Virus record (IMG/VR): IMGVR_UViG_3300050821_004721
Span: 1-43,568 of that record
Strand: one strand, 5' to 3'
DNA: 43,568 nt
DNA from: a virus
Shown here in pieces: positions 974-20,444 of this stretch (its first letter is position 1; each line of letters starts with the position of its first letter). Position numbers and translations under genes: made by a program. The notes beneath the pieces were generated by a model, which was not told where the DNA came from, did not search any database, and saw nothing but the letters and a program-made list of their open reading frames with translations.

Positions 974-1408
974 ATGAAGAGCCTCGGCAGTTTCGTGCTT
1001 TGCCTTCTTGTCGCGGCTCAATCTTTCGCTTCCTCCCGCATTGAGTTCTCGACCTGCGACCATCTCAACCCTCCGGCCATCACCCTCGAAACCAACTGCG
1101 ACGAAGACGAAATCTCGGTTGATATCTACTGGCAGGGAAACGGCATGATTGTCGCGCGAGATGGCTTCCTGCCCATGACCTTGCGGCGAATGCGCAACAA
1201 CCTCAGCATCCACACATATGCCGAGCAGCCGCTCACACCGCAGTTTCCAGTCAGCGAACTGGATCGGCCGGGACATCATGTCTTCCTTGGGACGTGTGTC
1301 GGCGATGGCTTTCCCGCCGAGCTGACGATCTATCTCGGCGTTGAGCGGATCGACGGGATCGACTGCTACTGGGTGCGGGCTGAAGACCTCAATCGAGTAA
1401 CTCCATGA
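974..1408 (+). CDS. Secreted protein, function unknown (signal peptide)
   Basis: 144 residues from ATG 974, preceded by GGAGG at 964-968. The N-terminus is a clear Sec signal peptide: Lys-3, hydrophobic core SFVLCLLVAAQ, and a probable cut after SFA near residue 20. The mature part is acidic, with Cys at DHL/TNCDED, GTCVGDG and IDCYW that could pair in the periplasm. I recognise no family. It is the first of at least eight exported-looking proteins scattered through the virion region. It lies directly after a terminator, so it may have its own promoter or depend on read-through. The stop overlaps the next start (ATGA). Confidence 0.75.
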   Translation: MKSLGSFVLCLLVAAQSFASSRIEFSTCDHLNPPAITLETNCDEDEISVDIYWQGNGMIVARDGFLPMTLRRMRNNLSIHTYAEQPLTPQFPVSELDRPGHHVFLGTCVGDGFPAELTIYLGVERIDGIDCYWVRAEDLNRVTP

Positions 1409-1713
1409 AACAAGGTTGTCCGCCTCCGCAAACGATTGCCGACGAGCTGATGGCGAAGCTCGGCGTTCTCGCCTTCTACCGCTATATGGGGAAGGTGCAA
1501 CTCTTTCTGGCTTGCTGGTACGACACCCAACTGTCGCACGAAGAAAACTGGCGAGTCGCAATGGCCGCAATTGAATCCGGCTGGACCCCGGAAAAGGAAC
1601 TCAATGGAAAAGAACACCATCCTGGAGACAGCGCCGTCTCTGTGTCAGCAGCCAGACCGAACCTCGCCGGACTTGCCGCACAGCTCCAGCGGCGCTGGCG
1701 GCTCGGGACTTAG
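1405..1713 (+). CDS. Hypothetical small protein
   Basis: 102 residues, starting at ATG 1405 inside the previous stop (ATGA), so probably translationally coupled. Residues 1-65 look like a real soluble helical protein (FYRYMGKVQLFLACWYDTQL). The last 35 residues overlap the next gene and have a less natural composition. No family recognised. The amino-terminal portion is the better supported part. Confidence 0.6.
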   Translation: MKQGCPPPQTIADELMAKLGVLAFYRYMGKVQLFLACWYDTQLSHEENWRVAMAAIESGWTPEKELNGKEHHPGDSAVSVSAARPNLAGLAAQLQRRWRLGT

Positions 1714-1831
1714 ATGGCCATACGGTGACTGTGGCGAGTATTACGCGCTGGAGCTGCCCGAAGTCGGGCCGCTGCCGATTGCGGACATGGGCGATGAGAT
1801 CGCCGCGGCACTGAGGGCGGAGGGCTTCTAG
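1604..1831 (+). CDS. Hypothetical small protein
   Basis: 75 residues from ATG 1604, chosen because AAGGAAC lies just upstream and the in-frame ATG at 1571 has no ribosome site. It overlaps the end of the previous frame by about 110 bases. The C-terminal half (WPYGDCGEYYALELPEVGP, then ADMGDEIAAALRAEGF) looks protein-like and folded. No family recognised. Confidence 0.6.
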   Translation: MEKNTILETAPSLCQQPDRTSPDLPHSSSGAGGSGLRWPYGDCGEYYALELPEVGPLPIADMGDEIAAALRAEGF

Positions 1832-1833
1832 CC

Positions 1834-1995
1834 ATGAATCCGCGCTGGCGGTGGGATCATGCGGCGCAGTGTTGGCGCGTCTTCTACGCCGGACAATTCT
1901 GGTGGATCAAGCCGAGCCCGGACAACTGGAAATACTTCCTTCGGGACATTCGCATGATCGCGATCGTTCCCGCGTTAACCACGAGGCCGCAATGA
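1834..1995 (+). CDS. Short Trp-rich hypothetical protein
   Basis: 53 residues, starting three bases after the previous stop and ending at TGA 1993-1995, which overlaps the next ATG at 1992. The N-terminus is Trp/Tyr rich (MNPRWRWDHAAQCWRVFYAG, then QFWWIKPSPDNWKYFL). The tight packing between two genes and the overlapping stop/start support translation. Function unknown. Confidence 0.55.
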   Translation: MNPRWRWDHAAQCWRVFYAGQFWWIKPSPDNWKYFLRDIRMIAIVPALTTRPQ

Positions 1996-2420
1996 GCTTG
2001 GATACGTTTGCGAGCAATCCCTGGGTCCAGGTCCTCGCCGCGATTGGCGCCCTTGATCTTCTCTTTCACGTAGTTCTGAACTTCTGGAGAAAACTCATGG
2101 CAACTGTGACACAGCAGATCACCATCACCATCGCGCCGGCCGCTCCGCCGCCTCCTCCTCCGTTGTCGATCGATACAACGCAAGTGCCGACGAGCGGACA
2201 GGTGGGCGTTGCCTACCAGGGCGAAGTCAACGTCGAAGGCGGCGTTCCTCCTATCTCGTTGTCCGTGACGGATCCGCAGGATCTTCCTCCCGGCATCTCG
2301 ATGGATGGGAACGGCAACCTGAGCGGCACGCCGACAACCGCGGGCCCGTTCACCTTCACCGTGCAGGCGCAGGATTCCGCGCCGTCCGCTCCGCAGGCGC
2401 AACCCGCGAAGTCGAGCTAA
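1992..2420 (+). CDS. Putative-Ig (He_PIG-like) domain protein with N-terminal membrane segment
   Basis: 142 residues from ATG 1992 (ATGA overlap with the upstream gene). ATG 2097, with GGAG eight bases upstream, is an alternative giving 107 residues. Residues about 10-32 (VQVLAAIGALDLLFHVVL) are hydrophobic. A proline linker (APPPPPP) leads to one putative Ig fold. Its GNLSGTPTTAGPFTFTV stretch matches the hallmark of He_PIG domains (LPxGxxxxxxGxLSGTPT..G.y.FTV), found in many bacterial surface proteins. It could decorate the virion or sit in the inner membrane. Two hairpins follow it. Confidence 0.75.
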   Translation: MSLDTFASNPWVQVLAAIGALDLLFHVVLNFWRKLMATVTQQITITIAPAAPPPPPPLSIDTTQVPTSGQVGVAYQGEVNVEGGVPPISLSVTDPQDLPPGISMDGNGNLSGTPTTAGPFTFTVQAQDSAPSAPQAQPAKSS

Positions 2421-2527: not shown

Positions 2528-2543
2528 ACTTACGAGAGACCAT

Positions 2544-2601: not shown

Positions 2602-2985
2602 ATGAAGATGCCAATCACACTGCTGGCCGTATTGCTGATGTCTGCAATGCCGGTCTTCGCCAACAATCCCGGCCAGCACAGCATTCTCTTCACGTTTCAA
2701 GATGCGAGCTGTGATGCCAGCGTGACCTGCACCTTCAACATGTACCAGGCCACGGCGAGCGGGGCGTGCGGCGCGGGCAAGACTCCGCTTGTGACCAAGA
2801 TTGCGCCGGTCCCGGGCAACGATCAATACCTCCAGGGTAACGTCGCGGCGGGGACGTATTACACGGCTTTTACGGCCGTGGACCCGACGACTGGAGGTGA
2901 AAGCACCTGCTCGAACGAGGTGCAGACATCGGTGCCGGGTATCACCACGAAATCTCCGAGCAACGCTGCCGGTACGGTGCAGTAG
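2602..2985 (+). CDS. Secreted FN3-like domain protein
   Basis: 127 residues from ATG 2602 with a GAGGA ribosome site. Residues 1-20 form a signal peptide (MKMPITLLAVLLMSAMPVFA, cut before NN). The mature part looks like a single fibronectin-III-like fold. SILFTFQDAS is the first strand, CTFNMYQAT matches the 'YNVYR' region, and GTYYTAFTAVD then ESTCSNEV matches the 'YYYVVTAVD..GESxxSN' end of FN3 domains. Four Cys could form disulfides after export. FN3-type modules are common on phage tails, but a Sec signal on one is unusual. It has its own terminator-bounded position. Confidence 0.72.
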   Translation: MKMPITLLAVLLMSAMPVFANNPGQHSILFTFQDASCDASVTCTFNMYQATASGACGAGKTPLVTKIAPVPGNDQYLQGNVAAGTYYTAFTAVDPTTGGESTCSNEVQTSVPGITTKSPSNAAGTVQ

Positions 2986-3158: not shown

Positions 3159-3339
3159 GCCACTGACTCCGGAGGAGACAGCCCTCCTCAGGTCGAACCG
3201 GAATTGCTCACCTATGAGCAATGCCGAGAAGCTCGGGATCCCCCTCGATCACGCGATGATCGCGCTCCGCGCTCTCTGGGAAATGGGCATTTTGCCGGAA
3301 CAGTTCAAGGAGTACGTGTGTGGGCTACCGCCTTCCTAA
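3148..3339 (+). CDS. Small hypothetical protein
   Basis: 63 residues from ATG 3148 with GAGGA immediately upstream, overlapping the previous gene. The sequence is mostly helical (LTPEETALLRSN, then LDHAMIALRALWEMGILP), which could be a small helix bundle or HTH-like fold. Its stop lies inside the next gene. Function unknown. Confidence 0.6.
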   Translation: MERRPLTPEETALLRSNRNCSPMSNAEKLGIPLDHAMIALRALWEMGILPEQFKEYVCGLPPS

Positions 3340-3694
3340 TCCGCAGTGGGATGGCGAGCTGCGGAAGTGTGTCGTCTGCGGCGTCCAGGACCGGCCGATC
3401 TATGCCGGCTACGCTTCGACGGATCCCGGCGATTTGGGGCAGCCAGTCTTTGAGCATTCGGTAGTACTGGAGTTTTACTTCTGCAAAGACCTGACGGCGA
3501 AAGACAAGGCGGACGGCTATCTGCCCATCAAACTCGACGGCGGCCGCGCGGCAAAGATCCGGGCCATCTGTCTGACCTGCCAGCGCGATGCCTATGAGCG
3601 CGACGAAGTCTGGCGCGATTTCAAGAAGTCGCAACGCGAATCCGACGAACAATCCCGCGAGCCGAGCTTCTACTTCACGCTTTGCTCAGAGTAA
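3320..3694 (+). CDS. Zinc-ribbon hypothetical protein
   Basis: 124 residues from GTG 3320 (AAGGA upstream), overlapping the previous gene by 20 bases. A CVVC pair near residue 17 and a CLTC pair near residue 84, far apart, suggest a split zinc knuckle. The last quarter is a charged helix. No family recognised. It closes a run of small coupled genes; the next gene has a separate ribosome site. Confidence 0.62.
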   Translation: MGYRLPNPQWDGELRKCVVCGVQDRPIYAGYASTDPGDLGQPVFEHSVVLEFYFCKDLTAKDKADGYLPIKLDGGRAAKIRAICLTCQRDAYERDEVWRDFKKSQRESDEQSREPSFYFTLCSE

Positions 3695-3730: not shown

Positions 3731-6643
3731 ATGAACTCAACGAGATCCTTTCGCACTGATCTGTTAATCGTGCTCGGCTTCCTGCTGGTGATGTTCGGCA
3801 TTCTCGTGCCCGCGGCGCACTGCCAGGGCGGCACGGTAGTCACTCAGCCGACCATTCTCATCAAGACGAGCGGCTCGACGGTAACGACGATCGTCGATCC
3901 ATCACAGCAGTTCTCGACGACTCACTCGATCGAATACGTCTTCCTTGGAACGCTGCCTTCGACGGCAAGCGTCGTCGTCACGGGCGCGATGCGGGGAGGA
4001 TCGGCTTGTACGATCACTGGCGCTCTGTCTGGAACAGGCACGGCGGCAAGCGGTAATCCGGTCCTTCAGGCAAGCGGCCTCTGCGACAAGCTGTTGGTAA
4101 CGACGAGCTGGACCGGAGGCGATGCCACTACCAAGTTGCAGCTCAATGTTCTGGGCGCGGTCATGGCGCGGCTTCCGACTACGGCGGGACCGTTCTATAC
4201 GCAGCAATTCCCCGGAACGACGTTCGATCAACGCGCAATCAACTGCCTCAATTCTCTCCCTGCGACGGGCGGGATCTGCGACGCCTCGAAAGAAGGCAGC
4301 CAGGTCCCGGCCGCTTCCATCACGACCTCGGTCAACAATGCTGTCCTCCTCATGCCGATCGGCACGACTACCCTACAAACCGGCATCACCATTACCGCAA
4401 GCGGCAATCATTTTCTCTTAGGATGTGGAACACCTTGGGCATGTGTGATCGATGGCTCGAACAATGGGACGCTTCCGATTGCGACAATCAATGGCAATTA
4501 TTCCGGCGTCTCCTGGATCTACGGCATCGGCGGCCGATTGAATTCGCAAGCGGGCAATGAGTTCTACATCGGGACGGCGGGATCGGTTTCAGCAGTTGGC
4601 GACTTCATTGACCATGTGTTGGTGCAAGATTCAGGCGGATCCGCGTTTACCTGGACCGATTGCAATCAATGCTCGATCACGTTCTCGAAAGTCGATCACT
4701 CCGGAAATCCCTGCGTCACAATCAACGGCAATGCGAGCAGCAACGGCGGATATGTCGAGGACAATGACTTCGACGACTGCAACACGGTTTCGACGACGAG
4801 CCAGGGCGACATTAACGTGCTCTCGGCCACATGGGGAGCGACGCGCGGCATTGTCGTCCGGCGCAACCGGATCCGCAATGGCAATCAAGGCTTCGCGCAC
4901 ATGGGAACGGCGAACGGCGGGGCGACTGGCGTCGTCTCGATCACCGTTCTGAGCACGACCGTCACCTACATCGGAGGGATGGGATTTCAATCGACCTGGA
5001 CGAACTCGACCAGTAGCAACTGGCACATGCGGATCGCCGATGTCGATTACAAGATCAGTTCGGCGACGACCGGCGCGGTTTCCGGCACGACGACGCTCAC
5101 GCTGTCGAGTGCGATCGTGGCTTCGCCCGGATGTCCTTCGGGAACGTGCGGAACGGTCTCTTACCTTGTCTATAGCGTTCCCGCGGAGCCTGCCGCGAAA
5201 GGCGCATCCGGAGCTTGCGGATACTTTTCCGGGCAGGGCGCGGCGGGACCGGACTCGGTCACGGTGTCAACGAACACGCTGACGCTCAATTCCGACACGA
5301 ACGGCGTCGGCCCGAATACTTACGGCCTGTTCAAGTGCTCGCTCGGCTGGCTGAATTCGACGAGCGTCTGGAATGGATGGACGTTCCAGTACGGGACTTC
5401 GCTCGGAACGCTTGGGACTGCCGGCAAGACGGCGATCATCTCGTCTTGCACGAGCGCGACCGCCTGCACGTTTACGACGACTCCGACCGCGCTGTCGAAT
5501 GCTTCCTGGTGGGTGGCATTCCCGACGCCGCTCGCGACTGACACCGGAGCCGGCGAAGGAATCCAGGTCTCGGCCAAAGCTGAGGACATAACGCTCGCCG
5601 AAGACGATGTCTCAAATACCGCGGATGAAGGTCTGGTCTGCGGCGAGATGAATTGCATCGTCGAGAACAATACCGTCACGAATCCTGCGCAAGCCTGTAG
5701 CGCCGGAGGATGTGGTTGCATCATCGACAGCGTGCAGAGCACGACGACCGGAGGCGGAATCTCTGGCCTGACTGCGACGGGAAATGTCTGCAAAGCAGAC
5801 TCTTCCTTCGGTTATCCGGCGACAGCGCAAGTCAACATCTCGAATACCACCGGCGCGATCGGGTATGCCTGGTTCCTGAGCGTTGCCTCTCCGGTTTCAA
5901 CCTCGTGTTACATGCGATCGCTCAACATTGCCGGCAATTCTGCCATTCAAGGGCCGGCAACCGGGACAATCACGAACGGCTTCCAGGCGATTAACTCGAC
6001 CGCAAGCGTTCCCTGTGTCCTCGATCCTTTCAGCGTCAACATTGGACCGAATGTCTACGACTCGCGCATTACGAATCCGCTCAACATCGCGCTGACCGGA
6101 GGCGCCTGGCAGGGAGCTTTCGCTGGCGCGGACATTCCAACCGCTTTCACGACGACGACCGGCACAACCTCAACCGTCGCGCTGACGCAGGGTACTTACG
6201 AAGTGTGGGGAGTCTACGTCCAGCAAGCGGCTCCCTGCAACAAGATCCTTGCGAGCGTCAAAACTGCAGACACGAACAACTCCTACGCGATCGGCATCTT
6301 TACCGGGATCAGCGGGCTGACGGCAACGCGCCTCTGCTACACGGCGGCACTGTCGAGTGCCACGCTTGCGGCCGGCGCGATCGATGTTCTCACTCCGACT
6401 GCTACAACGCCTCTGATACCGGCCGGGACGCGCATCTATTTCGTCGTCGCTCCGCCGACGACTTGTACGACGAGCTGCGCTCTTGTCTTCAATGGATCCG
6501 CGATCGGAACCGCTGCCGGGTCGCAATTCGGATTCCTGGTGCCAACGGCGACCGGGGTATCGAGCGGCACGATTCCAGCGACACTTACGATGCCGGCTGA
6601 CAATCCCGGCTATGCCACTTATCCCACGTTCGGTCTGAGGTAA
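3731..6643 (+). CDS. Large secreted parallel beta-helix protein (fibre/tailspike-like)
   Basis: 970 residues from ATG 3731, with AAGGAGA upstream. Residues 1-31 are a signal peptide (core LLIVLGFLLVMFGILVPAA, cut near AHC/Q). Residues about 36-155 form a beta domain with GAMRGG..C and a following W, shared with the gene at 19543. Residues 230-400 look like a right-handed parallel beta-helix (pectate-lyase/NosD type: short Asn/Gly-rich rungs such as GYVEDNDFDDC, RGIVVRRNRIRNGN). A beta insert near 410-470 resembles those of other tail genes here. The C-terminal 170 residues are a separate beta-rich domain. Size and layout fit a receptor-binding or glycan-degrading tailspike. A signal peptide on such a protein is odd and could mean secretion or surface display. 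No catalytic residues identified. Confidence 0.75.
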   Translation: MNSTRSFRTDLLIVLGFLLVMFGILVPAAHCQGGTVVTQPTILIKTSGSTVTTIVDPSQQFSTTHSIEYVFLGTLPSTASVVVTGAMRGGSACTITGALSGTGTAASGNPVLQASGLCDKLLVTTSWTGGDATTKLQLNVLGAVMARLPTTAGPFYTQQFPGTTFDQRAINCLNSLPATGGICDASKEGSQVPAASITTSVNNAVLLMPIGTTTLQTGITITASGNHFLLGCGTPWACVIDGSNNGTLPIATINGNYSGVSWIYGIGGRLNSQAGNEFYIGTAGSVSAVGDFIDHVLVQDSGGSAFTWTDCNQCSITFSKVDHSGNPCVTINGNASSNGGYVEDNDFDDCNTVSTTSQGDINVLSATWGATRGIVVRRNRIRNGNQGFAHMGTANGGATGVVSITVLSTTVTYIGGMGFQSTWTNSTSSNWHMRIADVDYKISSATTGAVSGTTTLTLSSAIVASPGCPSGTCGTVSYLVYSVPAEPAAKGASGACGYFSGQGAAGPDSVTVSTNTLTLNSDTNGVGPNTYGLFKCSLGWLNSTSVWNGWTFQYGTSLGTLGTAGKTAIISSCTSATACTFTTTPTALSNASWWVAFPTPLATDTGAGEGIQVSAKAEDITLAEDDVSNTADEGLVCGEMNCIVENNTVTNPAQACSAGGCGCIIDSVQSTTTGGGISGLTATGNVCKADSSFGYPATAQVNISNTTGAIGYAWFLSVASPVSTSCYMRSLNIAGNSAIQGPATGTITNGFQAINSTASVPCVLDPFSVNIGPNVYDSRITNPLNIALTGGAWQGAFAGADIPTAFTTTTGTTSTVALTQGTYEVWGVYVQQAAPCNKILASVKTADTNNSYAIGIFTGISGLTATRLCYTAALSSATLAAGAIDVLTPTATTPLIPAGTRIYFVVAPPTTCTTSCALVFNGSAIGTAAGSQFGFLVPTATGVSSGTIPATLTMPADNPGYATYPTFGLR

Positions 6644-6655
6644 GGAGTGTCTCCT

Positions 6656-6898
6656 GTGAGTATGACTTGGCAGATCGTGTTGGCGCTGTTCACCATTCTT
6701 ATCCAAGTCGCAACCGCCGCCTATGTGTATGGACGGCTGACGGAGCGAGTGAGAACGCTTGGCGATCGCACTGTTGACCACGGCCGCCGAATCACGAACC
6801 TCGAAACGGTGACGAGTGGCGTTGGCGGTCATGGCGAACGGATCACCGCGATCGAGGCCTGGCGTCTCGAACATCTGCGTAAGGGCCCGAACACCTGA
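6656..6898 (+). CDS. Membrane-anchored coiled-coil protein, candidate holin or lysis accessory
   Basis: 80 residues from GTG 6656, eight bases after AAGGAG (6642-6647). ATG 6662 is an alternative. Residues 4-24 are one membrane segment (WQIVLALFTILIQVATAAYV), followed by a heptad-like helix (RLTERVRTLGDRTVDHGRR, then RITAIEAWRLEHL). It lies directly upstream of the L,D-transpeptidase-fold enzyme, so a role as holin or spanin partner is likely from position. It has only one TM helix, so it would be a class III holin or an inner-membrane lysis accessory. The family is not certain. Confidence 0.65.
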   Translation: MSMTWQIVLALFTILIQVATAAYVYGRLTERVRTLGDRTVDHGRRITNLETVTSGVGGHGERITAIEAWRLEHLRKGPNT

Positions 6899-6908
6899 CG
6901 GAGAGACT

Positions 6909-7328
6909 ATGCCGCACATCTACGAGCAGAAAACGGGGAAGTGGACGCACGACACCGGCGCGGCGCAATTCACCTGGACGGGCTATTCCGGACACGGCGA
7001 GGGGAAAAACAATCCCGCCATGCAGGCGGTCCACGACGTAGGGCCGATCCCGTGCGGCAAATATCTGATCGGAACGTTCTTTGATCACCCCGAGAAAGGC
7101 CCTGTTGTCGCTCGTCTGACGCCATTGCCCGAAACCAACACTTTCGGTCGCACGGCTCTGGAGCTGCATGGGGACAGTATCCAGGCTCCTGGCACGGCCA
7201 GCCTTGGCTGCATCATCCAGTCCCGGCCCGCTCGGGAACACATCCGCGACAGTCACGATTACAACCTGGAGGTCATCAGTGGCGAAGAACCAGCAGTCAC
7301 TCAATCAGGGACAGACGCCGTTCGCTGA
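6909..7328 (+). CDS. L,D-transpeptidase-fold / Tlde1-like (DUF2778) peptidoglycan enzyme, candidate endolysin
   Basis: 139 residues from ATG 6909 (GGAGAG upstream); a longer reading from 6816 would overlap the previous gene and lacks a ribosome site. The order of motifs matches the DUF2778/Tlde1 family: YSGHGEGKNNP near residue 26, GPIPCGKY near 45, then LHGDS (His-87) and ASLGCI (Ser-98, Cys-101). His and Cys are the catalytic pair of L,D-transpeptidase folds; Tlde1 enzymes cut or exchange D-amino acids on peptide stems. There is no signal peptide, as expected for a holin-dependent lysin. No other muralytic gene is visible, so this is the best endolysin candidate. The assignment to lysis is inference from context. 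Confidence 0.75.
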   Translation: MPHIYEQKTGKWTHDTGAAQFTWTGYSGHGEGKNNPAMQAVHDVGPIPCGKYLIGTFFDHPEKGPVVARLTPLPETNTFGRTALELHGDSIQAPGTASLGCIIQSRPAREHIRDSHDYNLEVISGEEPAVTQSGTDAVR

Positions 7329-7668: not shown

Positions 7669-8292
7669 GTGACAAAGCGATTCTCTGCAATCAGTATCCT
7701 GAGCGTCATCCTGGCGCTTGCGATGTTCGTTCCCGCGCTGGCTCACGGCCAGGCGCAAGTTCCCGGCCAGGGCGGGACGGGCGGCAATGCTTTTACCTGC
7801 GGCGGCTCCTACTGCTACACGCCGGATGCCGGCTGGAATCCGCTTGACTCGAATGCGGCGTTGCAGACGACGGGCGCGATGCTGGTCCGCGCGCTCAATG
7901 GCTCAAAACTGTTCTTCGGCACGGTCTCGCAGGATGTGACGCTTTCGACCGGAGGCACGACCACCGTGACCTCGACGCCGACGATGCTGCCGGCCGGCTC
8001 GATCATCCTGGCCGTCAATGGAACGGTGACGACCACGATCACCGGCTCGTGTACGGGATGGGAATTCGGCGACGGCACGACTGCGGCCCGCTTTACCTCG
8101 AATAACACCACGCTGACGGCGGGATCGAATTCCATCGGCATCAATCAATGGAACCAGATCTCGACCGCCTCGGCGCAGCCTGGCCAGCCTGCCGCAGGGA
8201 ATATCACGGTTACCTGCGCGGGCGGCGCTCCGACCGCAGGGAAGATCCGCATCACGACCTTCTATTTGCAGCCGATTGGACCTTCTCAATAA
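7669..8292 (+). CDS. Signal-peptide tail-fibre-like beta protein
   Basis: 207 residues from GTG 7669, chosen because CAGGAGA lies at 7654-7660 with normal spacing. A signal peptide spans about residues 1-27 (core ISILSVILALAMFVPALA). The body is beta-rich, with LSTGGTTTVTSTPTMLPAG, then a GDGTTAARF segment and an SIGINQWNQ segment. The same order (sTGGTTT, LLPA, sWxxGDxTTAARF, AGTTSxGxxxW) occurs in C-terminal domains of many phage tail proteins, so a virion fibre role is likely. Export before virion use would be unusual. Confidence 0.72.
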   Translation: MTKRFSAISILSVILALAMFVPALAHGQAQVPGQGGTGGNAFTCGGSYCYTPDAGWNPLDSNAALQTTGAMLVRALNGSKLFFGTVSQDVTLSTGGTTTVTSTPTMLPAGSIILAVNGTVTTTITGSCTGWEFGDGTTAARFTSNNTTLTAGSNSIGINQWNQISTASAQPGQPAAGNITVTCAGGAPTAGKIRITTFYLQPIGPSQ

Positions 8293-9082: not shown

Positions 9083-9742
9083 ATGACAACCGAGCACAAA
9101 CTGATCCTGGTCTTCCTCGCGCTGTTCGCGGTGGGAGGAAGTCTGGGCACGTATCTCGTCATGTCCGAACGCGCGGCGACGCGCGAGGCGCAGCTCAAAG
9201 CGGAGGCGGCGCAGAAAAGCGCTGACGATGCAAAGGCCGACATGGCGAAGCGGGATGCAGAAGCCGCGGCCGCGCTCAAAGCGTTCCAGACTCAGCTCTC
9301 ACAGATCAAGACGAATCAGGACGTGGCGACCACCCTCGCCCGGCCTTCGTCGAAGCTGCCAGCTCTGGCCTTCAATCCCTTCGAGGTTGAGCCGTCGCCG
9401 ACGCCGGGAGATCCGAACGCGGTCTCCGTGAATGTTCCGCAAAAGAACATTGTCCCGCTGTTCAAGTCCCTCGAAACCTGCGCCGAGCAGCACGACGAGC
9501 TCGGCCACTGCCTCGCGGATGTCGCGGACACCGAGAAGGAACGCGATGCCGCGCTCGCGCAAGCCAAGATCTGGGAAAAGGCGGCGAAGCCGGGCGTCGC
9601 GTCGCGTTCCTGGTTCGCAACGCGCGTCGCCGGCTGCGGAGGCCTCGGGGCTGCCGCGGGCGTGGCCACCGGACGCAAGAACGCGCCGATCTGGGGCTCG
9701 ATTGCCGGCGTCGGATTCTGCGCCCTGGCGCTGCGCTGGTAG
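9083..9742 (+). CDS. Membrane-anchored coiled-coil protein, possible spanin-like
   Basis: 219 residues from ATG 9083. Residues 6-27 are a membrane helix (LILVFLALFAVGGSLGTYLV). Residues 30-85 are an Ala/Lys/Glu-rich coiled coil. A proline-rich stretch near 110 leads to a second helical part with Cys-containing ETCAEQHDELGHCLADVA. The C-terminus has two more hydrophobic, Gly/Ala-rich segments (RVAGCGGLGAAAGVATG and IWGSIAGVGFCALAL). N-anchor plus coiled coil recalls inner-membrane spanins, but a C-terminal hairpin is not typical of Rz. It lies close to other small membrane genes, so a lysis role is possible. Confidence 0.65.
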   Translation: MTTEHKLILVFLALFAVGGSLGTYLVMSERAATREAQLKAEAAQKSADDAKADMAKRDAEAAAALKAFQTQLSQIKTNQDVATTLARPSSKLPALAFNPFEVEPSPTPGDPNAVSVNVPQKNIVPLFKSLETCAEQHDELGHCLADVADTEKERDAALAQAKIWEKAAKPGVASRSWFATRVAGCGGLGAAAGVATGRKNAPIWGSIAGVGFCALALRW

Positions 9743-9770
9743 TGCAGATGTCTGCAAAGGAGAACGCCTC

Positions 9771-10076
9771 ATGCACGCTGCGGTTGTTGTTGTAACCGGC
9801 CTGGTCGCGCTGATCGTCGGATGGATCGCCGGCGCCTGCTTCCGGGCGAGCGTCCAGGCGGACATGCTGACGCGGGCGAGCGCCCTTTACAAAGGCATGA
9901 TGATCGAGCGCAACGCGGCGATCGGCGTCCTGTCGCGGGTGAAGGAAGAACTCGCGCAGCTCCAGGGCGACGGACGGAAGCGCGTCGTGCTGGCCGAAGA
10001 CCTCAGCTCGGTCCGCAAGCTGGCCTCGATGCCCGAGAACGTGCGGACAGAAGAGAAAAAGATCGTCGGAGGGTAG
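9771..10076 (+). CDS. Small single-pass membrane protein
   Basis: 101 residues from ATG 9771 with AAGGAG at 9757-9762. Residues 2-24 are a membrane helix (AAVVVVTGLVALIVGWIAGA), followed by a charged helix with EELAQLQGDGRKR. Single N-terminal helix plus a cytoplasmic or periplasmic coiled region, as in several neighbours. Function unknown; it lies in the probable lysis/membrane cluster between 9083 and 10369. Confidence 0.68.
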   Translation: MHAAVVVVTGLVALIVGWIAGACFRASVQADMLTRASALYKGMMIERNAAIGVLSRVKEELAQLQGDGRKRVVLAEDLSSVRKLASMPENVRTEEKKIVGG

Positions 10077-10078
10077 CG

Positions 10079-12281: not shown

Positions 12282-13064
12282 ATGAAAAAGAACGTCATTC
12301 TCGCGTCACTCGTGTTGCTGCTGGTCGCCTCCTGCGTAGCCGTGGGCCCGCACGTCGTCGTGAATATCGTCGATGTCCTGACGGAGATCTCGATCGGCGG
12401 CGGGTCGTATCTCACGTCGAGCAATCAGTCCGGCAATGGCGGATACATCGTCATGACCAACGCCTCCGCGCCGAGCGTCGGCGACTGCCTCGTCGGCAAC
12501 GGTACCACCTGGCAAGCGCTGACATGTCCGGGAGGATCCAGCATTTCAGGAACGCTGCAAGCGGATTACGCGATCCAGTCGTTCAACGCGAATACGAGTT
12601 CGATCCAGCAGATGAAAGGGATCTCGCTCTCTGCGGGGAACGTTGGCTCCGGGAACGATGCCTGGGTCTATCGCAATACCATGCAGGTCATTGCGCTCAA
12701 TAGCTCCGAGGCCGTCAATGTTTGCTGGCAGCTTGCCTCCAGCTCGACGCCGAGCTGTTCCAACTTCCAGCTTGCGCTGAACGATGGCACGCACACGAGC
12801 TGGTTTGTCACGATCAAGGTCGAATGCGGAACACAGGGCAGCGGAGTCGATGCTGGCGATGCGAACTGCGACATCCTCTACGACGTGCTCGCCGGCGGAG
12901 TTACGACACATGGTTTCGTTTCGACCTGCACTCCTTCGGGGACGGCCTGCAGCGGGCCGAATGTCAGCGGCGGGGCGTTTGAGGCGGTGGATGTGCAATT
13001 CGGCACCGCATCCGCGACCAACACCGCCTACGACACTTCCCAAGTCGTCATCAAAGAGAATTAA
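12282..13064 (+). CDS. Predicted lipoprotein, beta-rich fibre-like
   Basis: 260 residues from ATG 12282. The N-terminus has Lys-2/3, a hydrophobic core and a good lipobox VASC (Cys-18: MKKNVILASLVLLLVASC), so lipid attachment is likely if it is exported. The mature part is Gly/Ser/Thr-rich beta structure with GNGTTWQALTCPGG and several Cys pairs (VNVCWQ, CSNFQL, KVECGT, NCDI, TCTPSGTACSG). These resemble fibre or receptor-type domains rather than an outer-membrane spanin, which would be far shorter. It lies directly before the portal gene. Surface display or superinfection exclusion are alternatives to a virion role. Confidence 0.7.
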   Translation: MKKNVILASLVLLLVASCVAVGPHVVVNIVDVLTEISIGGGSYLTSSNQSGNGGYIVMTNASAPSVGDCLVGNGTTWQALTCPGGSSISGTLQADYAIQSFNANTSSIQQMKGISLSAGNVGSGNDAWVYRNTMQVIALNSSEAVNVCWQLASSSTPSCSNFQLALNDGTHTSWFVTIKVECGTQGSGVDAGDANCDILYDVLAGGVTTHGFVSTCTPSGTACSGPNVSGGAFEAVDVQFGTASATNTAYDTSQVVIKEN

Positions 13065-13079: not shown

Positions 13080-15473
13080 ATGGACGCAAAAGGTAGCAGC
13101 CGCAATGCGAACGCGGCAACGGCCGGGACCGGCGCGGGAGCGGCGAATGTCGAGTCGGCTCTCATTGCGTGGGGAGAGCTGAAATTCCGCGAAGACGCTC
13201 TCGGCCGCGATGCCGAAGAGCGCGAGTGGCAGGAGGAAGGTCTCTTCTACCAGCGCCGGCAGTGGCTGGAGTGGAAAGAAGGCGAACGGCGCTATACACA
13301 GCTCAAGCCCGACAAGCGCAAGCCGCGGCCGATGCCGGTCTCGAATTACTTTGCAAAGACCGTCAACGCCAACGCAAACCAGCTCGGAGCGCAAGTCGTC
13401 AAAGTCACAGCCACGCCGCGCACTGATGACGCGCAGACGCGGAGAGCCGCCGACTATGCGGAGATGGCGAAGGACGCTCTCGACATCGAGACGAACCTCA
13501 TCTTCCTGAATCCGTTACTGGCAAAGCATACCGCGCTCTGGGGCATCGGCGTCCTCAAGGATACAATCGACACCTCCGCGGATCCGCAGGCGCTCGACGA
13601 GCAAGAGACGGAAGACACGAACGTCGTCGGGTGCCTCGATTGTGGCGGCGTCAACGAGCTGGAGCCCGGCCAGATGGATTCCGGCGACTTCGGCCAGCAG
13701 ACCATTCCTTGCCCGGATTGCGGATCAGACCAGACCGCGAACTGGACACGGCAGCGGCCGATTGCCGTCTCGCAGTATGTAAGCGGCAAAGGCTATGTTC
13801 GCACCGAAGTGCGGCCGATCTTTGAAGTCTATCTTCCGCGGGATGTCCAGAATCCAAACCTGACCTACCGTGTGGTTCATCGCTATCGCCGCACCTTGAG
13901 CGAATTGCGGCGGAAGTACGACGACAAGGCCGAAAAGATCACATCGGACGATCCCGCAACCAACACGAGCGAGACCCGCTACGATGTCTTGCGGACACTC
14001 AGCTCCTACACCTTTGCCGAGCGCGTCAACGCCGAGACCGCCGTCATTACCGAGATCTGGTCCGAGTGGGACAAGCTCCCCAAACGTCTGCAGGAAGCGA
14101 TTGCCGACGAGTTTGCCGGCAATGAAGATGGGGACGAAGAAGCGCAAGAGACCGCCGAGCTATCACAGCGGCCGCAACTGCGCCCCGGCAATCCGGCGCC
14201 GGCGCAGCCTGGCGACGAGGACGAACTCGCGCGCATCAAGCAGCATGGGATCTTCTTCATCTACTCGCAAGGCACGATGCTGGAGTGGGGATCGAACCCC
14301 AATGTCGATCCCGACAGCGATGAGAATTACTTTCCTTTCACGTTCTTCGTATGGGATGCGGATCCGGCGAGCGTCTACCCGAAAGGGATTGGCGCGGACC
14401 TGGTCCCGCTGCAGAAGCGGTTGAACCGCCTCGATTCCCTGATCGAACTTGGAATGCTGTCGAATGCGGCCGGGAAGTGGATCTGGCCGACAACGCAGTC
14501 AAACATGAAGCCGCCGAACGGAGATCCTTCGGATGTCATCATGTACGACCCGATCGGCGATGGAAAGGCGGCGCCGGAGTTCGTCCAGCCTCAGCCCTTT
14601 ACCGGCCAGGTCTGGCAGTATCGCGCCGCCATTTTGTCGGACTTCCAGCAGCTCGGACTGACGCTCGGAGTGCAGACGGGCGATGCGGGAGGGCAGTCGT
14701 CGTTCCGGGGGATCGCGTACCTCGGGGCTAAAGCCAGCGAGCAGCTCAACACACAGCGTTACCTGTGGGAGTCGGCGCATTGTCTGCATTACAAGAAGCT
14801 CCTGCTTCTCGCGAAACTGGTCTGGGATGAAGAGCGCCAGGTGAAAGTATCCGGGCCGAACGGCCGTTATTTGTTTGAATCCTTCACTGGCGAAGATCTG
14901 CTCGGGTCGTATGAGGTCAATTACGTTCCGAATTCCTCCATCCCGAAGACGCAGGACGAGAAGCTCGAAATGCTGCAGACGCTGGTCGAGGGCGGCCTCG
15001 TCGATCTGACGGATCCCGGCAACCGGCAGTATGTCTATGAGCTCATCAACCTCGAAGGCGTCAACCTGGTCAACGAGCTCCAGATGCGGAAAGCGGAGCG
15101 AGACCTTGAAGCCGTCAAGCGCGGCGAGATGCCGCACGAATCGCCCTTCCAGGACTGGAACATCGAACTCAAGGCCGTCGCGAACTACACGCTGACGGAG
15201 GAATTCGAGAGGCTCGATCCGCAGTTGCAGACTTATGTCCTCGCGTTCGGCGAATACTGCAATCAGAAAGTGCAGTTCGCCGCGCAGCAGCAAATGATGA
15301 CGCAGCTTGCGATGCAGCAGCCGCCGAGCCTCGGAAAGAGAAAGCCGTCCGGCTCCGCGGATCCTAACAATCAAACGCTGGCGAAAGTGCCGGGCGTGAC
15401 CTCTGGACCGGGCGCGACACAGGACGCCGCGCTCAGCCAGGGAGACCAATTCGCTCACCAGATGGGAGCGTAA
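13080..15473 (+). CDS. Portal protein (P22-type, large) with inserted zinc ribbon
   Basis: 797 residues from ATG 13080 with GAGGAG upstream. Length and order (portal, then scaffold and coat) fit podovirus portals, the dodecameric ring through which DNA enters and leaves the head. Supporting features: the N-terminal RQWLEWKEGERRY and MPVSNYFAKTVNANAN segments, LPRDVQNPNLTYRVVHRYR in the middle, and PLQKRLNRLDSLIELGML, typical of the stem/clip region. Residues 185-214 carry CLDC and CPDC, an inserted zinc ribbon not usual in portals. Residues 355-385 are an acidic, Pro-rich loop. The C-terminus (from about 730) is Gln-rich and probably disordered. Confidence 0.87.
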   Translation: MDAKGSSRNANAATAGTGAGAANVESALIAWGELKFREDALGRDAEEREWQEEGLFYQRRQWLEWKEGERRYTQLKPDKRKPRPMPVSNYFAKTVNANANQLGAQVVKVTATPRTDDAQTRRAADYAEMAKDALDIETNLIFLNPLLAKHTALWGIGVLKDTIDTSADPQALDEQETEDTNVVGCLDCGGVNELEPGQMDSGDFGQQTIPCPDCGSDQTANWTRQRPIAVSQYVSGKGYVRTEVRPIFEVYLPRDVQNPNLTYRVVHRYRRTLSELRRKYDDKAEKITSDDPATNTSETRYDVLRTLSSYTFAERVNAETAVITEIWSEWDKLPKRLQEAIADEFAGNEDGDEEAQETAELSQRPQLRPGNPAPAQPGDEDELARIKQHGIFFIYSQGTMLEWGSNPNVDPDSDENYFPFTFFVWDADPASVYPKGIGADLVPLQKRLNRLDSLIELGMLSNAAGKWIWPTTQSNMKPPNGDPSDVIMYDPIGDGKAAPEFVQPQPFTGQVWQYRAAILSDFQQLGLTLGVQTGDAGGQSSFRGIAYLGAKASEQLNTQRYLWESAHCLHYKKLLLLAKLVWDEERQVKVSGPNGRYLFESFTGEDLLGSYEVNYVPNSSIPKTQDEKLEMLQTLVEGGLVDLTDPGNRQYVYELINLEGVNLVNELQMRKAERDLEAVKRGEMPHESPFQDWNIELKAVANYTLTEEFERLDPQLQTYVLAFGEYCNQKVQFAAQQQMMTQLAMQQPPSLGKRKPSGSADPNNQTLAKVPGVTSGPGATQDAALSQGDQFAHQMGA

Positions 15474-15925: not shown

Positions 15926-16321
15926 GTGGGGCGCATGATGAAAGCTGTAATTCGCTGGTTTCTTTTGGCGGGGACGATGTTCGCGAATCCCTTTACGGGT
16001 CCCACCGTCTTCCCGCAATCGTTCGATCCATCCAGCAAAGAGAAGATCCATGATCTGGGCGGCCGCGACGTAAAAATGATTTCGGCCCTCGGGCCGGTGT
16101 CGTACTCGAACCCCGCTGGCATTCCGGTGACCGCGTCGCTCTTTGGTTGGCGGGCTCTCGAATGGTGGTTTCCGGTCGCCTCCAACAATGTGGCTTATGA
16201 TTTGTCGATGGACGCGACTGGCAATATTCACGTTTCGACCTCAAGCGCCGGAACGGAAGTGGCGAACGCGACCAACCTGTCCGGCACGACGTTCTTCATC
16301 TTGGCTGCTGGAATCCGGTAA
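15926..16321 (+). CDS. Signal-peptide protein, function unknown
   Basis: 131 residues from GTG 15926, nine bases after AGGAGG; ATG 15935 and 15938 are alternatives. A signal peptide covers about residues 1-21 (MMKAVIRWFLLAGTMFA, cut before NP). The mature part is short and beta-rich (DLSMDATGNIHVSTSSAGTE, TFFILAAG) and resembles a small fibre or decoration domain. It sits between portal and scaffold, bounded by hairpins at 15886 and 16348, so it may be regulated separately from the head genes. Confidence 0.68.
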   Translation: MGRMMKAVIRWFLLAGTMFANPFTGPTVFPQSFDPSSKEKIHDLGGRDVKMISALGPVSYSNPAGIPVTASLFGWRALEWWFPVASNNVAYDLSMDATGNIHVSTSSAGTEVANATNLSGTTFFILAAGIR

Positions 16322-16395: not shown

Positions 16396-17592
16396 ATGGC
16401 AATTATCGAGAACGATGCAGCGGGACGGCGCGAGCAGTTGCGGGAGTCAATGCGCTCCGTCAGCGCAGAACAGGTCGCTGAGCAGACGCCGACTGAGGGC
16501 GAAGAAGTTGAGACGCTGGACGAGATCTTCAATACTCCGCGCCCCGCGGCTGAAGTCGAGGAACCCGCCGAAGAGATCGTCGAAGAAGCGGAAGAGGTTG
16601 AGGAAGCCGAAGAAGCCGAACTCGAAGAGGAAGAGGTTGAAGAGACCGACGAGGAACGGGAAGAGCGCGAAGCGGCCGAAGCTGAGGAACGCGAAGGCGA
16701 GACCGACGAAGAACGCGAGGCGCGGGAAGCTGCAGAAGCGGCCGGCGAAGTGCCGGAAGAGATCACCGCCGAAGAATTGCAGGTCCTCAATCACCGAAGC
16801 GAGACCTTCGATGCGCTGCTCGAAGCGCTCGACGAGACCGATTACCCGATTCCTCAGCTTGGCGGCCAGACCGAAGAAGAAATCGCGGAAGGCGTCCAGG
16901 AACTCTCGGCTCGGCTCGCGGATTCCCATGCCCTCTACGACATCATGCAGGGCAAAGGTGCAGACGGGATCTTCGAGCGGGTCAAGAAGTTCCAGGGACA
17001 AGAGGCTCACGATTACGCACTGCGGGCCGTCCTCGCGTATGCGGAAAAGGTTGGCCTGATCGAATCCACCGGCGCCCCAGCCGGCAAGAAGCCAGCTGCG
17101 GGGGTAGCGGATCCCGCCGAGACGCCGAAAGAGAAAGCGCTGCGCGAGGAAAACGAAAAACTGCGCCGCGAAGCCGGCCAGCGCCGTACGAACGATGACG
17201 AGAAAAAGCTGGGGGAGCGGCGGACCGCCGTCGCGCTCGCCGCAGTCACCGCGGCCGAGAACTACGCGAAAGAACTCCAGATGTCCGACGAGGACTTCAA
17301 AGAGTTCGTCATGCCGCAGATGAAAGGCCTCGGGCATAACAAGGCGATATTCAATCGCTGTTCGCGCAATAACTTTGTCGATCTGATCCAGATCGTCGAT
17401 CGGGTCCAGGCTCGCTTGACCGGCAAGCGCGTGAGTGCCGGCAATGAGCGAGTGCAACGACGCAAGATTCGGGACACTTCATTCCCGAAACGGGTTGCTG
17501 GAGTGGAAATACGCCGGCCGGCCGAACGGTCTCACGATCTCTCGACTTCCGAGGGACGGCGAGCCGCGGCGAAGGCAGCGCTTCGCGGATAG
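16396..17592 (+). CDS. Acidic coiled-coil protein, probable scaffolding protein
   Basis: 398 residues from ATG 16396 with GAGGAGA upstream. Residues 40-125 are extremely Glu-rich, residues 130-230 are a helical domain, and residues 240-300 are a charged coiled coil (KALREENEKLRREAGQRR). The C-terminal 50 residues are basic (VQRRKIRDTSFPKR). Helical and acidic with a basic tail, immediately upstream of the coat gene, is the pattern of podovirus scaffolding proteins, which use a basic C-terminal helix to bind coat. No protease motif is seen. Confidence 0.72.
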   Translation: MAIIENDAAGRREQLRESMRSVSAEQVAEQTPTEGEEVETLDEIFNTPRPAAEVEEPAEEIVEEAEEVEEAEEAELEEEEVEETDEEREEREAAEAEEREGETDEEREAREAAEAAGEVPEEITAEELQVLNHRSETFDALLEALDETDYPIPQLGGQTEEEIAEGVQELSARLADSHALYDIMQGKGADGIFERVKKFQGQEAHDYALRAVLAYAEKVGLIESTGAPAGKKPAAGVADPAETPKEKALREENEKLRREAGQRRTNDDEKKLGERRTAVALAAVTAAENYAKELQMSDEDFKEFVMPQMKGLGHNKAIFNRCSRNNFVDLIQIVDRVQARLTGKRVSAGNERVQRRKIRDTSFPKRVAGVEIRRPAERSHDLSTSEGRRAAAKAALRG

Positions 17593-17629: not shown

Positions 17630-18925
17630 GTGGCTGATATGGAACAAGGTGGACGCATCGAGAAGGCGTTGCGCGGAGGCTTCCAGCGCTCTTTGGTCTG
17701 CAATGCAGACGTGGAGACGGTGGGACGCATCGGCGCAATGCTCAAGAACGTGTACGACGATGGCGTCGTCCAGCTACAGAATCAGGCGACTGTGATTCGC
17801 AAGAAGTTCACCAAAGCGAAGGCAGTCCGAGTCAGCGGCGATCATTACGAGATGGATGTTCGAGTCTCCGGCAACCGCGGAGGCGTGGGCGCTCGCTTGT
17901 CTGACGATCCGATGCCTGTCGCAAAGCGGCAGCGGCATCAAAAAGCAATGGTCTATGACCGTTCCGTGTTTGGAACGATCAAGCTGTACGACAAGGACAT
18001 CCAGGACGCGGAAGAGTCCGAGGACGCCTTCATCAACCATCTCGACGATGAAATGGAAAACATTGTGCTTGATTTCATGAAGCACATGAACATCATCACC
18101 TACGGAGATGGCACGGGCATCCTGGCGACGGTCAACGCCAACACGAACAACTCCAATCAGTTCGTCGGCAAGACGGGCTCGACTTGGGGCTCGTTCGGCT
18201 CGACCTACCTGATGACCGACGACCAGCTCGATATCTGGGATTCGACGCTGACCATCCGGCGCTGTCCTCCGGGCGGAGCGGCGATCGTTTCGGTTGAGCC
18301 CACCACGCAGACCGTGACGCTCGATCAGAACCTGACGCTGACGGCCGGCGATATCGTGACCCGCTACAACTCCGCCAACAAGGAGTACATCGGGCTGCAG
18401 ATTGCCTTCGATAACAGCTCCTCGGTTGTGTTTCAGAACGTCAACCGGGCGACGACTCCGCGCTATCGCGGCAACGTCATCGACGCGGGCGGCCAGATGC
18501 TTTCGGAAGTCTTCCTGCAGCAACTCTTCTCGCTGATCGAGATTGCAACCGGCCAGGAGCCGAACACGATCGTTACGCATAATGCCCAGTGGGACCATTA
18601 CGCGGCGATCGGGACTTCGCTCAAGCGGTTCGTCTCAACCAAGATCGACATGGGCTTTGCGACCCTCGATTATTTGGGAGTGGGCTTCATGAAGGACGTG
18701 GACTGCCCGAAATTCAATATCCATGTCTTCAAAAACGACGGCGTGCAGAACGGCGTCGTGAAGCCGCTCGGCTGGCTCGATCGCGACGGCAAAGTGCTCA
18801 AGTGGGTTTCCGGCTATGCCGCATGGACCGGGATCCTGGCTGAGTACGGCAATTACGTTTATCCGAACCCGCAGCTCGGGGGACGGGTGCAGAATCTCTT
18901 CGTCGATACTGTGTACTTGAGCTAA
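17630..18925 (+). CDS. Major capsid (coat) protein
   Basis: 431 residues from GTG 17630, preceded by GAGGAG at 17617-17622; an upstream extension in the same frame lies under the scaffold gene and has no ribosome site. Position after portal and scaffold and before adaptor/nozzle, the length, and the mixed alpha/beta sequence fit an HK97-fold coat. Supporting stretches: the N-terminal arm, KAVRVSGDHYEMDVRVSGNR, a central TVTLDQNLTLTAGDIVTRY insert, NTIVTHNAQWDHYAAIG and the C-terminal YGNYVYPNPQLGGRVQNL. A strong terminator follows, as is usual for a highly expressed coat gene. Confidence 0.85.
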   Translation: MADMEQGGRIEKALRGGFQRSLVCNADVETVGRIGAMLKNVYDDGVVQLQNQATVIRKKFTKAKAVRVSGDHYEMDVRVSGNRGGVGARLSDDPMPVAKRQRHQKAMVYDRSVFGTIKLYDKDIQDAEESEDAFINHLDDEMENIVLDFMKHMNIITYGDGTGILATVNANTNNSNQFVGKTGSTWGSFGSTYLMTDDQLDIWDSTLTIRRCPPGGAAIVSVEPTTQTVTLDQNLTLTAGDIVTRYNSANKEYIGLQIAFDNSSSVVFQNVNRATTPRYRGNVIDAGGQMLSEVFLQQLFSLIEIATGQEPNTIVTHNAQWDHYAAIGTSLKRFVSTKIDMGFATLDYLGVGFMKDVDCPKFNIHVFKNDGVQNGVVKPLGWLDRDGKVLKWVSGYAAWTGILAEYGNYVYPNPQLGGRVQNLFVDTVYLS

Positions 18926-18951
18926 TCGGCGACGAGTGGCGAGGTCACAAA

Positions 18952-18996: not shown

Positions 18997-19007
18997 CGGA
19001 GGGATTC

Positions 19008-19529
19008 ATGTCACAGCTCGCGATGCACGAAGGCCTCGTCGTTCCAGCGACCTGTGTTGACGAGAACCGGACGCCTCCGAGCTGGTTTCTGCGGAAGATG
19101 CAAGAGACCTTCGCCAAGGACATGCTCATCACCTGGCACAAGAAGAAACAGCGTTGGGTTATCGAGCAGTGCATCGAGCACCATCCCGGAGCGCTCTTCG
19201 TCAACGGAGTTCAGGAGCATTCCCATCTCTGCCGGCGAATCTACGTGTGGCTCGTGCGCCACGAGAACAACGGCGACGCTTACATGCCGCTCAGCGAGCG
19301 TGTGATTGAGCGGCTGCACGAGATGGAAACTTACCGGAAGTACGGCACTGGACCGAATGCGCTCGCGAAATTCCGCGCTGAATCTGCGGCTTTCGATCGC
19401 GAGCAGGAAAAGAAGAAACGCGAGAACGCGCATGAAATCTTCCGATATCTCAAGCGGCATCATCGCGTCGTCCGCAACAAACTCAAGCTCCTGATGGAGC
19501 GCCACGACTGGCTCAGACCGAACAAATAG
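19008..19529 (+). CDS. Hypothetical protein downstream of coat
   Basis: 173 residues from ATG 19008 with GGAGGG upstream; the longer reading from 18936 would cross the terminator. Aromatic and charged: FLRKMQETFAKDMLITWHKK, then KKQRWVIEQC and EHSHLCRRIYVWLVRHE. The last 60 residues are strongly basic and helical. It has no signal peptide or membrane segment. It may bind nucleic acid. Similar proteins occur near coat genes of related phages in my impression, but I cannot name the family. Confidence 0.68.
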   Translation: MSQLAMHEGLVVPATCVDENRTPPSWFLRKMQETFAKDMLITWHKKKQRWVIEQCIEHHPGALFVNGVQEHSHLCRRIYVWLVRHENNGDAYMPLSERVIERLHEMETYRKYGTGPNALAKFRAESAAFDREQEKKKRENAHEIFRYLKRHHRVVRNKLKLLMERHDWLRPNK

Positions 19530-19542
19530 GGAGAATGACACG

Positions 19543-20286
19543 ATGCGTCGCGCCCTTCTGTTTTGCTTTTTACTGATTACTGCATCGCTGGGTGGTCAAA
19601 CGGAACAGGTCATATTGGGCTCGCAGACGTACACGACAGCGAGCAGCACTGGCGTCATCTTCGACGATCAAGGGCGTGGCACATTTACGAACACTTGGGA
19701 ATTCTTGATCCAGGGCGGAACTCCCTCGAACTGGCAGGCGAACATTTCCGGCTGCATGCGTGGCTTAACTTGTTCGATGCTCGGATCGGCCACTTATGAT
19801 GGCAGCCACAATCCGCAGAGCATCACGCAAGGCGGTCCTTACGATTTCTATGTGGTGACATGGTCCAGTTCCGCATGGACGAATCCGAAACTTACCATCA
19901 ATCGCACCGGCTCACGCTATGCGCGTTCTCCATTGATTGGCGGGAATGCGACGAGCGCCACGGTGGGTTATGCGGAAGCGACAGTTTCCTTCAATGATGG
20001 CGGTCAGACCTACCGTCTTGAGATCGAGATGGCGCAAGGCCCAAACCTTCCGCTTTCGATTGGCAGTTGTCAGTCGTTTCAAGTAATTAACGAAGTTGCC
20101 GCGCCGGGCGTGACGGGTGTTACCACGGGGGGGGGTTCTCTCAAGGAACAACCGGAGGAGCGAATTTTGTCACTTCGGCCGGATGCGCTTATGGCATCTA
20201 CACGGTCCCTGCGCAAGCCTCTTCGACGCAGATGGACGGTTGGATTGATTGTAATGCTGGCGGCGCTTACGAGTGCCAAGTCTTGA
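19543..20286 (+). CDS. Signal-peptide fibre-like protein, frameshifted at a G9 run
   Basis: As written the frame gives 247 residues from ATG 19543 (GGGAG upstream). Residues 1-18 are a signal peptide (MRRALLFCFLLITASLGG). Residues 30-130 repeat the beta domain seen at the start of the 3731 gene: a WEFLIQGGTPSNWQA part, SGCMRGLTC, then VVTW and RYARSP. Up to VTTGGG (nine G at 20127-20135) it reads as a real protein; after that the same frame becomes Arg/Leu-rich and unlike protein. The natural continuation lies one base back (see 20136-20444). The whole would be about 300 residues. Confidence 0.72.
   Translation: MRRALLFCFLLITASLGGQTEQVILGSQTYTTASSTGVIFDDQGRGTFTNTWEFLIQGGTPSNWQANISGCMRGLTCSMLGSATYDGSHNPQSITQGGPYDFYVVTWSSSAWTNPKLTINRTGSRYARSPLIGGNATSATVGYAEATVSFNDGGQTYRLEIEMAQGPNLPLSIGSCQSFQVINEVAAPGVTGVTTGGGSLKEQPEERILSLRPDALMASTRSLRKPLRRRWTVGLIVMLAALTSAKS
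20127..20135. repeat. G9 homopolymer at the frameshift point
   Basis: Nine consecutive G lie inside the fibre-like gene, exactly where coding potential moves to the -1 frame. Ten or seven G would restore one open frame. Such tracts cause slipped-strand phase variation or ribosomal -1 slippage, and they are also common sequencing-error sites. Confidence 0.85.
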
Positions 20287-20444
20287 TGTGGGACGCGAAC
20301 AGTAACCCATTATTTTCTGTCGGTTTTCACGGCATCGGAATGCAGCACTTCGGGATTCATGAAGTGCTCGGCAATATCCCTGCTGGCGGGTCTGTGGGAA
20401 TGGCGATCTACATCTTCCCGTGCCAGTGTCCTGGCAACAATTAA
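20136..20444 (+). CDS. Downstream part of the frameshifted fibre-like protein
   Basis: Reading from TTC 20136 gives FSQGTTGGANFVTSAGCAYG, then YTVPAQASS and a MDGWIDCNAGGAYECQV stretch, and ends PCQCPGNN at 20444. This is about 100 residues of fibre-like, Gly/Ser/Cys-containing sequence with no internal stop, continuing the style of the upstream part. There is no ribosome site at the junction, and the first internal ATG (20232) has none, so it is probably expressed only as a fusion. That could occur through -1 slippage on the G run, or in genomes with another G count. Counting 20136-20444 separately is for description only. Confidence 0.62.
   Translation, partial: FSQGTTGGANFVTSAGCAYGIYTVPAQASSTQMDGWIDCNAGGAYECQVLMWDANSNPLFSVGFHGIGMQHFGIHEVLGNIPAGGSVGMAIYIFPCQCPGNN

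Follow-up and report, generated by a model that had tools for sequence, protein, structure and literature searches.

A late-gene cassette of proteins with predicted Sec signal peptides (SPs), several of them built from fibre-type modules, lies among the virion genes of a soil-type bacterial virus, a 43,568-base IMG/VR virus record (IMGVR_UViG_3300050821_004721), which was analysed whole and is called the window here. The overall best explanation, to which we give a probability of about 0.5, is that these are exported fibres that would mature in the periplasm and attach to virions at lysis. The window carries an exact terminal repeat of 98 bases, which makes it probable that the map is circular and complete, with the terminase gene spanning the junction. 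It encodes a tyrosine integrase, portal, scaffold-like protein, capsid, adaptor-like protein and a further internal virion-type protein.

A cassette of signal-peptide proteins among virion genes

Seven late proteins of the window carry Sec signal peptides. SPs were called with a rule-based Sec test that scores a positively charged n-region, a hydrophobic h-region and an AxA-type site. A sequence-only reading of this DNA had named eight SP proteins, and all eight open reading frames (ORFs) are present at their starts; the rule calls those at 974, 2602, 3731, 7669, 11508, 12282 and 19543, with scores of 12.7–16.2 and a Shine-Dalgarno match at all seven starts. The eighth, 15926, is weak and doubtful, since the short h-region of its N-terminus (MGRMMKAVIRWFLLAGTMFA followed by NP) fails the rule. 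Two of its three homologues (G005_19864 and G009_5593; G numbers denote contigs of relatives) have no SP and the third (G002_29965) has a hydrophobic N-terminus; this decoration-like family thus has an SP-like start in some members and none in others. Lipoprotein status had been suspected for both 11508 and 12282, but the lipobox match occurs in 12282 and not in 11508. The SP genes do sit interleaved with portal and capsid genes, as had been described, and with lysis genes too, all in one orientation; the exception is a ninth SP protein found on the minus strand.

974–1408, plus strand: 144-amino-acid (aa) exported-type protein; SP MKSLGSFVLCLLVAAQSFA, 4 mature cysteines, no fibre domain recognised.
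2602–2985, plus strand: 127-aa SP protein of FN3-like type; homologous SP proteins G001_11444 (37% identity) and G008_3110 (32%).
3731–6643, plus strand: 970-aa SP protein; the SP is followed by a 'GAMRGG' N-terminal domain (N-domain), common to 19543 and relatives, and a long probable beta-helix; 28 mature cysteines when cut between AAHC and Q.
7669–8292, plus strand: 207-aa SP protein with a 'GDxTTAARF' fibre-tip domain; its homologue G002_16612 (47% over the tip) is likewise SP-bearing.
11508–12269, plus strand: 253-aa SP fibre protein; transthyretin-like N-domain and C-terminal QDxTGGRT tail-fibre domain (phrog_4549, E=5.5e-8).
12282–13064, plus strand: 260-aa SP protein; lipobox-like VASC, 8 mature cysteines, 15 nt upstream of the portal gene.
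15926–16321, plus strand: decoration-like protein with a weakly SP-like N-terminus.
19543–20444, plus strand: SP protein with an N-terminal 'GCMRG' domain, split by a run of nine G (G9, 20127–20135).
30308–30661, minus strand: 117-aa SP protein near the integrase; 6 mature cysteines.

The reading frame of 19543 is broken at the G9 run and resumes in the -1 frame as ORF 20232–20444, which fits the end coordinate of 20444 given earlier; the interruption may reflect phase variation or an assembly error.

SP enrichment in the family exceeds chance. Shuffled N-termini pass the Sec rule at a rate of 0.6–1.6%, and chance hydrophobic N-termini were rejected on that ground. Among family proteins of at least 100 aa, 33 of 253 (13%) are SP-bearing, against 10 of 625 (1.6%) in distantly capsid-related phage loci (Fisher p = 3e-11) and 0 of 42 in two actinophage loci.

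Signatures of export and cleavage

Cysteine parity points to the cleaved form of the SP proteins. Exported proteins tend toward even cysteine counts because of disulfides (PMC7678975). After predicted cleavage the count is even in 41 of 42 SP proteins (40 of 42 unless 3731 is cut between AAHC and Q), compared with 28 of 42 for the uncleaved forms and 76 of 154 for SP-less proteins encoded on the same contigs. In fifteen SPs the cysteine number is odd, and 14 of these 15 proteins have an even mature count, so that parity fits the cleaved form specifically; cutting at other fixed positions gave a weaker bias than the predicted site. Two SP proteins of locus L121, found in a later, separate scan, are both even (26 and 6 cysteines). 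Cysteine makes up 2.4% of residues in SP proteins and 1.0% in other proteins. Because domains are shared among them, the SP proteins are not fully independent observations.

The predicted cleavage sites often expose glutamine, which occupies position +1 in 20 of 34 phage SPs. This pattern resembles the Q-rule of Bacteroidetes (PMC5837995). On a Granulicella tundricola plasmid (L116–L119), glutamine stands at +1 in 13 of 20 SPs of predicted exported proteins and makes up 4% of residues, a Q-rule-like pattern outside Bacteroidetes.

A cytoplasmic form made from a second, SP-less start was considered and rejected: such internal starts occur in 2 of 37 SP genes, a lower rate than the 30 of 180 in control genes. 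By sequence, the proteins resemble substrates of Sec and signal peptidase I, having an n-h-c signal peptide with an AxA-type site and even mature cysteine counts. These strong signatures make it very probable that the SP proteins leave the cytoplasm, lose their SPs and form disulfide bonds in the periplasm. Reading the hydrophobic N-termini as membrane or tail-inserted helices, or as chance, gains from the calls having been made by rule, but the shuffle rate, the parity of the cleaved form and a frequency of glutamine at +1 far above its 4% background leave it scarcely plausible.

Conservation in related phages

Relatives of the window phage maintain the cassette while diversifying its content. 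Scanning viral contigs with single portal, capsid and TerL sequences found no relative; relatives were recruited from viral contigs by capsid alignment and then by a two-sequence portal alignment, with portals about 43–50% and capsids 54–60% identical. We found no close cultured phage, the sole portal match being Manatee Spring podovirus at 26% identity, and tblastn against isolated phages returned no match for 11508, 3731, 7669, one fibre of G005 or one fibre of G002.

Six contigs, G001–G006, cover the module from TerL to portal; these phages have SP proteins of their own in the same module, each with at least one large one. Much of the mature sequence of the module SP proteins is unrelated between phages. 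An SP protein with an 'RDL' domain stands just ahead of the portal in the window (with 12282 intervening), G001, G002, G003 and G004, and a homologue also occurs in contig fragment G008. Homologues of 11508 are SP-bearing and lie directly before the portal in G001, G002 and G003 and a short way ahead of it in G004. A further N-domain of SP proteins (GCMRGGTC) is common to 19543, 3731, G001, G002, G004 and G005. No SP protein was found in G009, a 6-kb fragment. An export signal on seven of the eight named proteins, kept in relatives, departs from the usual cytoplasmic synthesis of tail fibres and tailspikes; the P22 tailspike gp9, for example, is made in the cytoplasm.

Fibre character of the mature proteins

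Fibre character is clearest in 11508, whose C-terminal domain matches tail fibre family phrog_4549; for the remaining SP proteins no convincing family match emerged. A structural model of 11508 has an overall pLDDT of 59, with values of 72–89 over much of residues 20–130. Its N-domain model has eight viral matches at E<=1e-3 (down to 1e-4), with low TM-scores, among them predicted fibre-type proteins of collagen-like and pectate-lyase kinds; annotated tail fibres just miss the threshold. Matches of this domain to PDB folds (transthyretin-like, pilin, neck fibre) were too weak to use, the best at E = 0.02, and the 'GCMRG' domain model returned only unspecific viral matches.

Alignments and full sequences across relatives show conserved N-domains and variable C-termini, which is the usual pattern of receptor-binding proteins. 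Fibre-type modules had been noted in several of the SP proteins, and several are indeed built from them; 974 and 2602 are small and lack a fibre-tip domain. A segment of the SP fibres recurs in phage loci L125 and L126, within SP-less proteins that have one cysteine each.

Parallels in cultured phages and the probable host

Two cultured podoviruses of Acidobacteriota, Tunturi_1 and Tunturi_2 (PP887698, PP885685), encode a comparable run of SP proteins. Both infect Tunturiibacter psychrotolerans X5P2 (PMC11924767), and SPs stand at the start of their ORF12, 13, 14, 16 and 17, beside tail genes; annotations among these are tail fibre, tail spike/pectin lyase and virion structural protein. Like the window phage, they are short-tailed, with a run of late SP proteins and often glutamine at +1, and Tunturi_1 shares the even mature cysteine counts of the window family (4 of 5 SP proteins). 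They differ in that their portal and capsid are not detectably related to those of the window, their genomes are 63 kb and no integrase is reported. ORF17 is the most divergent late protein compared between the two (94–98%, with a length difference of 90 residues). The paper describing them uses neither the term signal peptide nor mass spectrometry (PMC11924767).

These annotations bear on whether the exported proteins could be something other than virion parts, namely secreted polysaccharide-degrading enzymes or adhesins that loosen host exopolysaccharide or matrix and aid progeny spread. The pectin lyase annotation falls on Tunturi_2 ORF14, a beta-helix look is common to 3731, G001_12909 and Tunturi ORF14/17, the viral fold matches of the 11508 N-domain include a pectate lyase, and expression together with lysis genes would suit release. 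Many members, however, consist of small fibre-tip or Ig-like modules that give no hint of catalytic activity, a conserved N-domain with a variable tip is typical of receptor-binding proteins, and few other receptor-binding candidates are left in these genomes. We regard secreted enzymes or adhesins as unlikely, though less so than the other rivals.

Other phages share parts of this arrangement. Like the window, crAss001 and P22 have genes for large modular fibre or beta-helix proteins close to their portal and lysis genes, and the crAss001 lysis region contains an L,D-carboxypeptidase/transpeptidase gene, where the window has a Tlde1-domain candidate endolysin. Unlike the window cassette, crAss001 gp22–26 carry no SP by the same rule test, and neither do the fibres of B40-8. 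To our knowledge no textbook podovirus has a comparable set of SP proteins; the set is unusual, as the sequence-only reading held, and it extends beyond the window phage to its family and to Tunturi_1 and Tunturi_2.

Porphyromonas phages (proposed Nixviridae) encode SP proteins of unknown function with a suggested role in modifying the outer membrane; their host-type SPs follow the Q-rule, as in the window, but they are not described as a fibre cassette (PMC10367356). The proteins studied here might coat the infected cell and bind that cell's own receptors, either blocking superinfection or stopping progeny from re-adsorbing to debris. Fibre-type domains on exported proteins could occupy receptors, and host-surface modification by SP proteins has been proposed for the Porphyromonas phages (PMC10367356). 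A late-module position among lysis genes is nevertheless late for exclusion, and most of these phages have at least three different SP proteins, beyond what exclusion needs. Among Tunturi phages, integrase or recombinase genes are annotated only in Tunturi_3 to Tunturi_5 (PMC11924767), so Tunturi_1 probably has no lysogen to protect. Coating of the cell is, in our estimate, improbable.

The cassette is very unlikely to be lysogenic conversion cargo. The lom and bor proteins of lambda are host-surface proteins of this kind, exported and encoded in or near virion gene regions; they differ from the window cassette in being expressed in lysogens and in having no tail-fibre modules. The window phage does have an integrase, and the minus-strand gene 30308–30661 near it fits well. 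G005 has a minus-strand SP protein (32556–32936) at the matching genome position, and both may possibly be lysogenic conversion genes. The main cassette, by contrast, shares the orientation of the virion genes and is closely packed with TerL, lysis and portal genes around it, a layout that speaks against a separate transcription unit outside the virion operon; it is also present in the apparently lytic Tunturi_1 and Tunturi_2.

In the open-licence literature that we searched, we found no account of a tail-fibre cassette with SPs. Both tail fibres and phage proteins with SPs are already known separately; a conserved exported disulfide-type fibre cassette was not found in that literature.

The phage probably infects a member of the Acidobacteriota. 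No prophage turned up in two scans of bacterial genomes with portal and capsid alignments, so the assignment depends on the style of the SPs and the parallel with the Tunturi phages; a search of the integrase against plasmids also gave no match. The Q-rule-like cleavage sites suggest SPs tuned to an Acidobacteriota-type host.

Attachment at lysis as the preferred model

We propose that the cassette encodes tail-fibre or spike-type proteins that would pass through the host Sec translocon late in infection. Signal peptidase would trim the N-terminus, often exposing glutamine, and disulfide folding would then take place in the periplasm, while short-tailed heads would assemble in the cytoplasm as usual. 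Once holin and endolysin open the cell, finished fibres would bind virions via their conserved N-terminal domains, and the receptor-binding apparatus would thereby be completed outside the cytoplasm.

That export takes such proteins out of assembly, as had been argued, is not a strict consequence: fibres can also be attached once the cell has lysed, a precedent being the in vitro addition of the tailspike in P22. Among a surface layer, decoration at lysis and exclusion, roles offered by the sequence-only reading, decoration at lysis fits best. That the exported fibres join virions when the cell opens we judge to be an even prospect.

Several points weigh against attachment at lysis. The SPs were assigned by rule and not by SignalP, and we found no confident structural match to a virion-attachment domain (best PDB match at E = 0.02; 'GCMRG' matches unspecific). 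An ordinary receptor-binding protein is possible, the main SP-less candidate being the non-SP candidate fibre gene 24437/24793. Tunturi_3, from the same host strain as Tunturi_1 and Tunturi_2, and Tunturi_5, from another strain of the species, have SP-less fibres, so export is no requirement of the host. Finally, we found no virion proteomics or localisation data for any of these phages.

Neighbouring genes

The remaining features of the late region include lysis and virion genes that flank or interrupt the cassette.

1992–2420, plus strand: He_PIG Ig-like domain protein (Pfam PF05345, E=1.4e-7); hydrophobic N-terminus, no SP call.
3320–3694, plus strand: CxxC-containing protein without SP, kept upstream of the SP fibre cassette in G001, G002, G003, G004 and G006.
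6647–7328, plus strand: small membrane protein (6647/6662) and Tlde1-domain candidate endolysin (6816/6909; PF10908, E=7.5e-12), within the SP cassette.
9083–10369, plus strand: membrane-anchored lysis-type proteins (9083, 9771, 10079), interspersed with the SP cassette.
13080–15473, plus strand: portal protein (phrog_156, E=4e-17).
16396–17592, plus strand: scaffold-like protein, by position and composition; homologues in G001, G002 and G004.
17630–18925, plus strand: major capsid protein (phrog_14242, E=4e-38).

The Tlde1 domain (PF10908) of the candidate endolysin (6816–7328) is known from type VI secretion effectors. A motif, SGMRGxEKP, occurs in 10388–10771 and in small proteins of relatives, upstream of the portal and sometimes twice per genome. 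The region 24437–25512 comprises overlapping ORFs (24437–24814 and 24733–25512) that are apparently a single gene in G001 and G006, a possible frameshift. A probable internal virion protein (25955–27010) has a weak C-terminal Hint-domain match (PF13403, E=1.6e-4, under the curated cut-off). At 35111–36004 the window encodes a protein built of a 27-base tandem repeat (17 overlapping copies listed), with a G002 homologue at 44%.

Implications for phage assembly

Tailed-phage assembly is taught as cytoplasmic, and an exported, disulfide-bonded fibre set would, if true, be a virion part matured in another compartment. As a tentative generalisation, to which we give a little under an even chance, some tailed phages of Acidobacteriota may use two-compartment assembly, in which a head and tail stub made in the cytoplasm would be joined at burst by secreted, trimmed and disulfide-bonded receptor-binding fibres from the periplasm. 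Host secretion and oxidative folding would then become part of phage infectivity, and such maturation could explain the stability of these fibres in soil. If the proteins are not virion parts, whole phage lineages devote much late coding capacity to secreted fibre-like proteins, which would be equally unexpected. The cultured Tunturi_1 and Tunturi_2 make the question testable now, and the cysteine-parity test offers a simple screen of other phage genomes for exported structural proteins.

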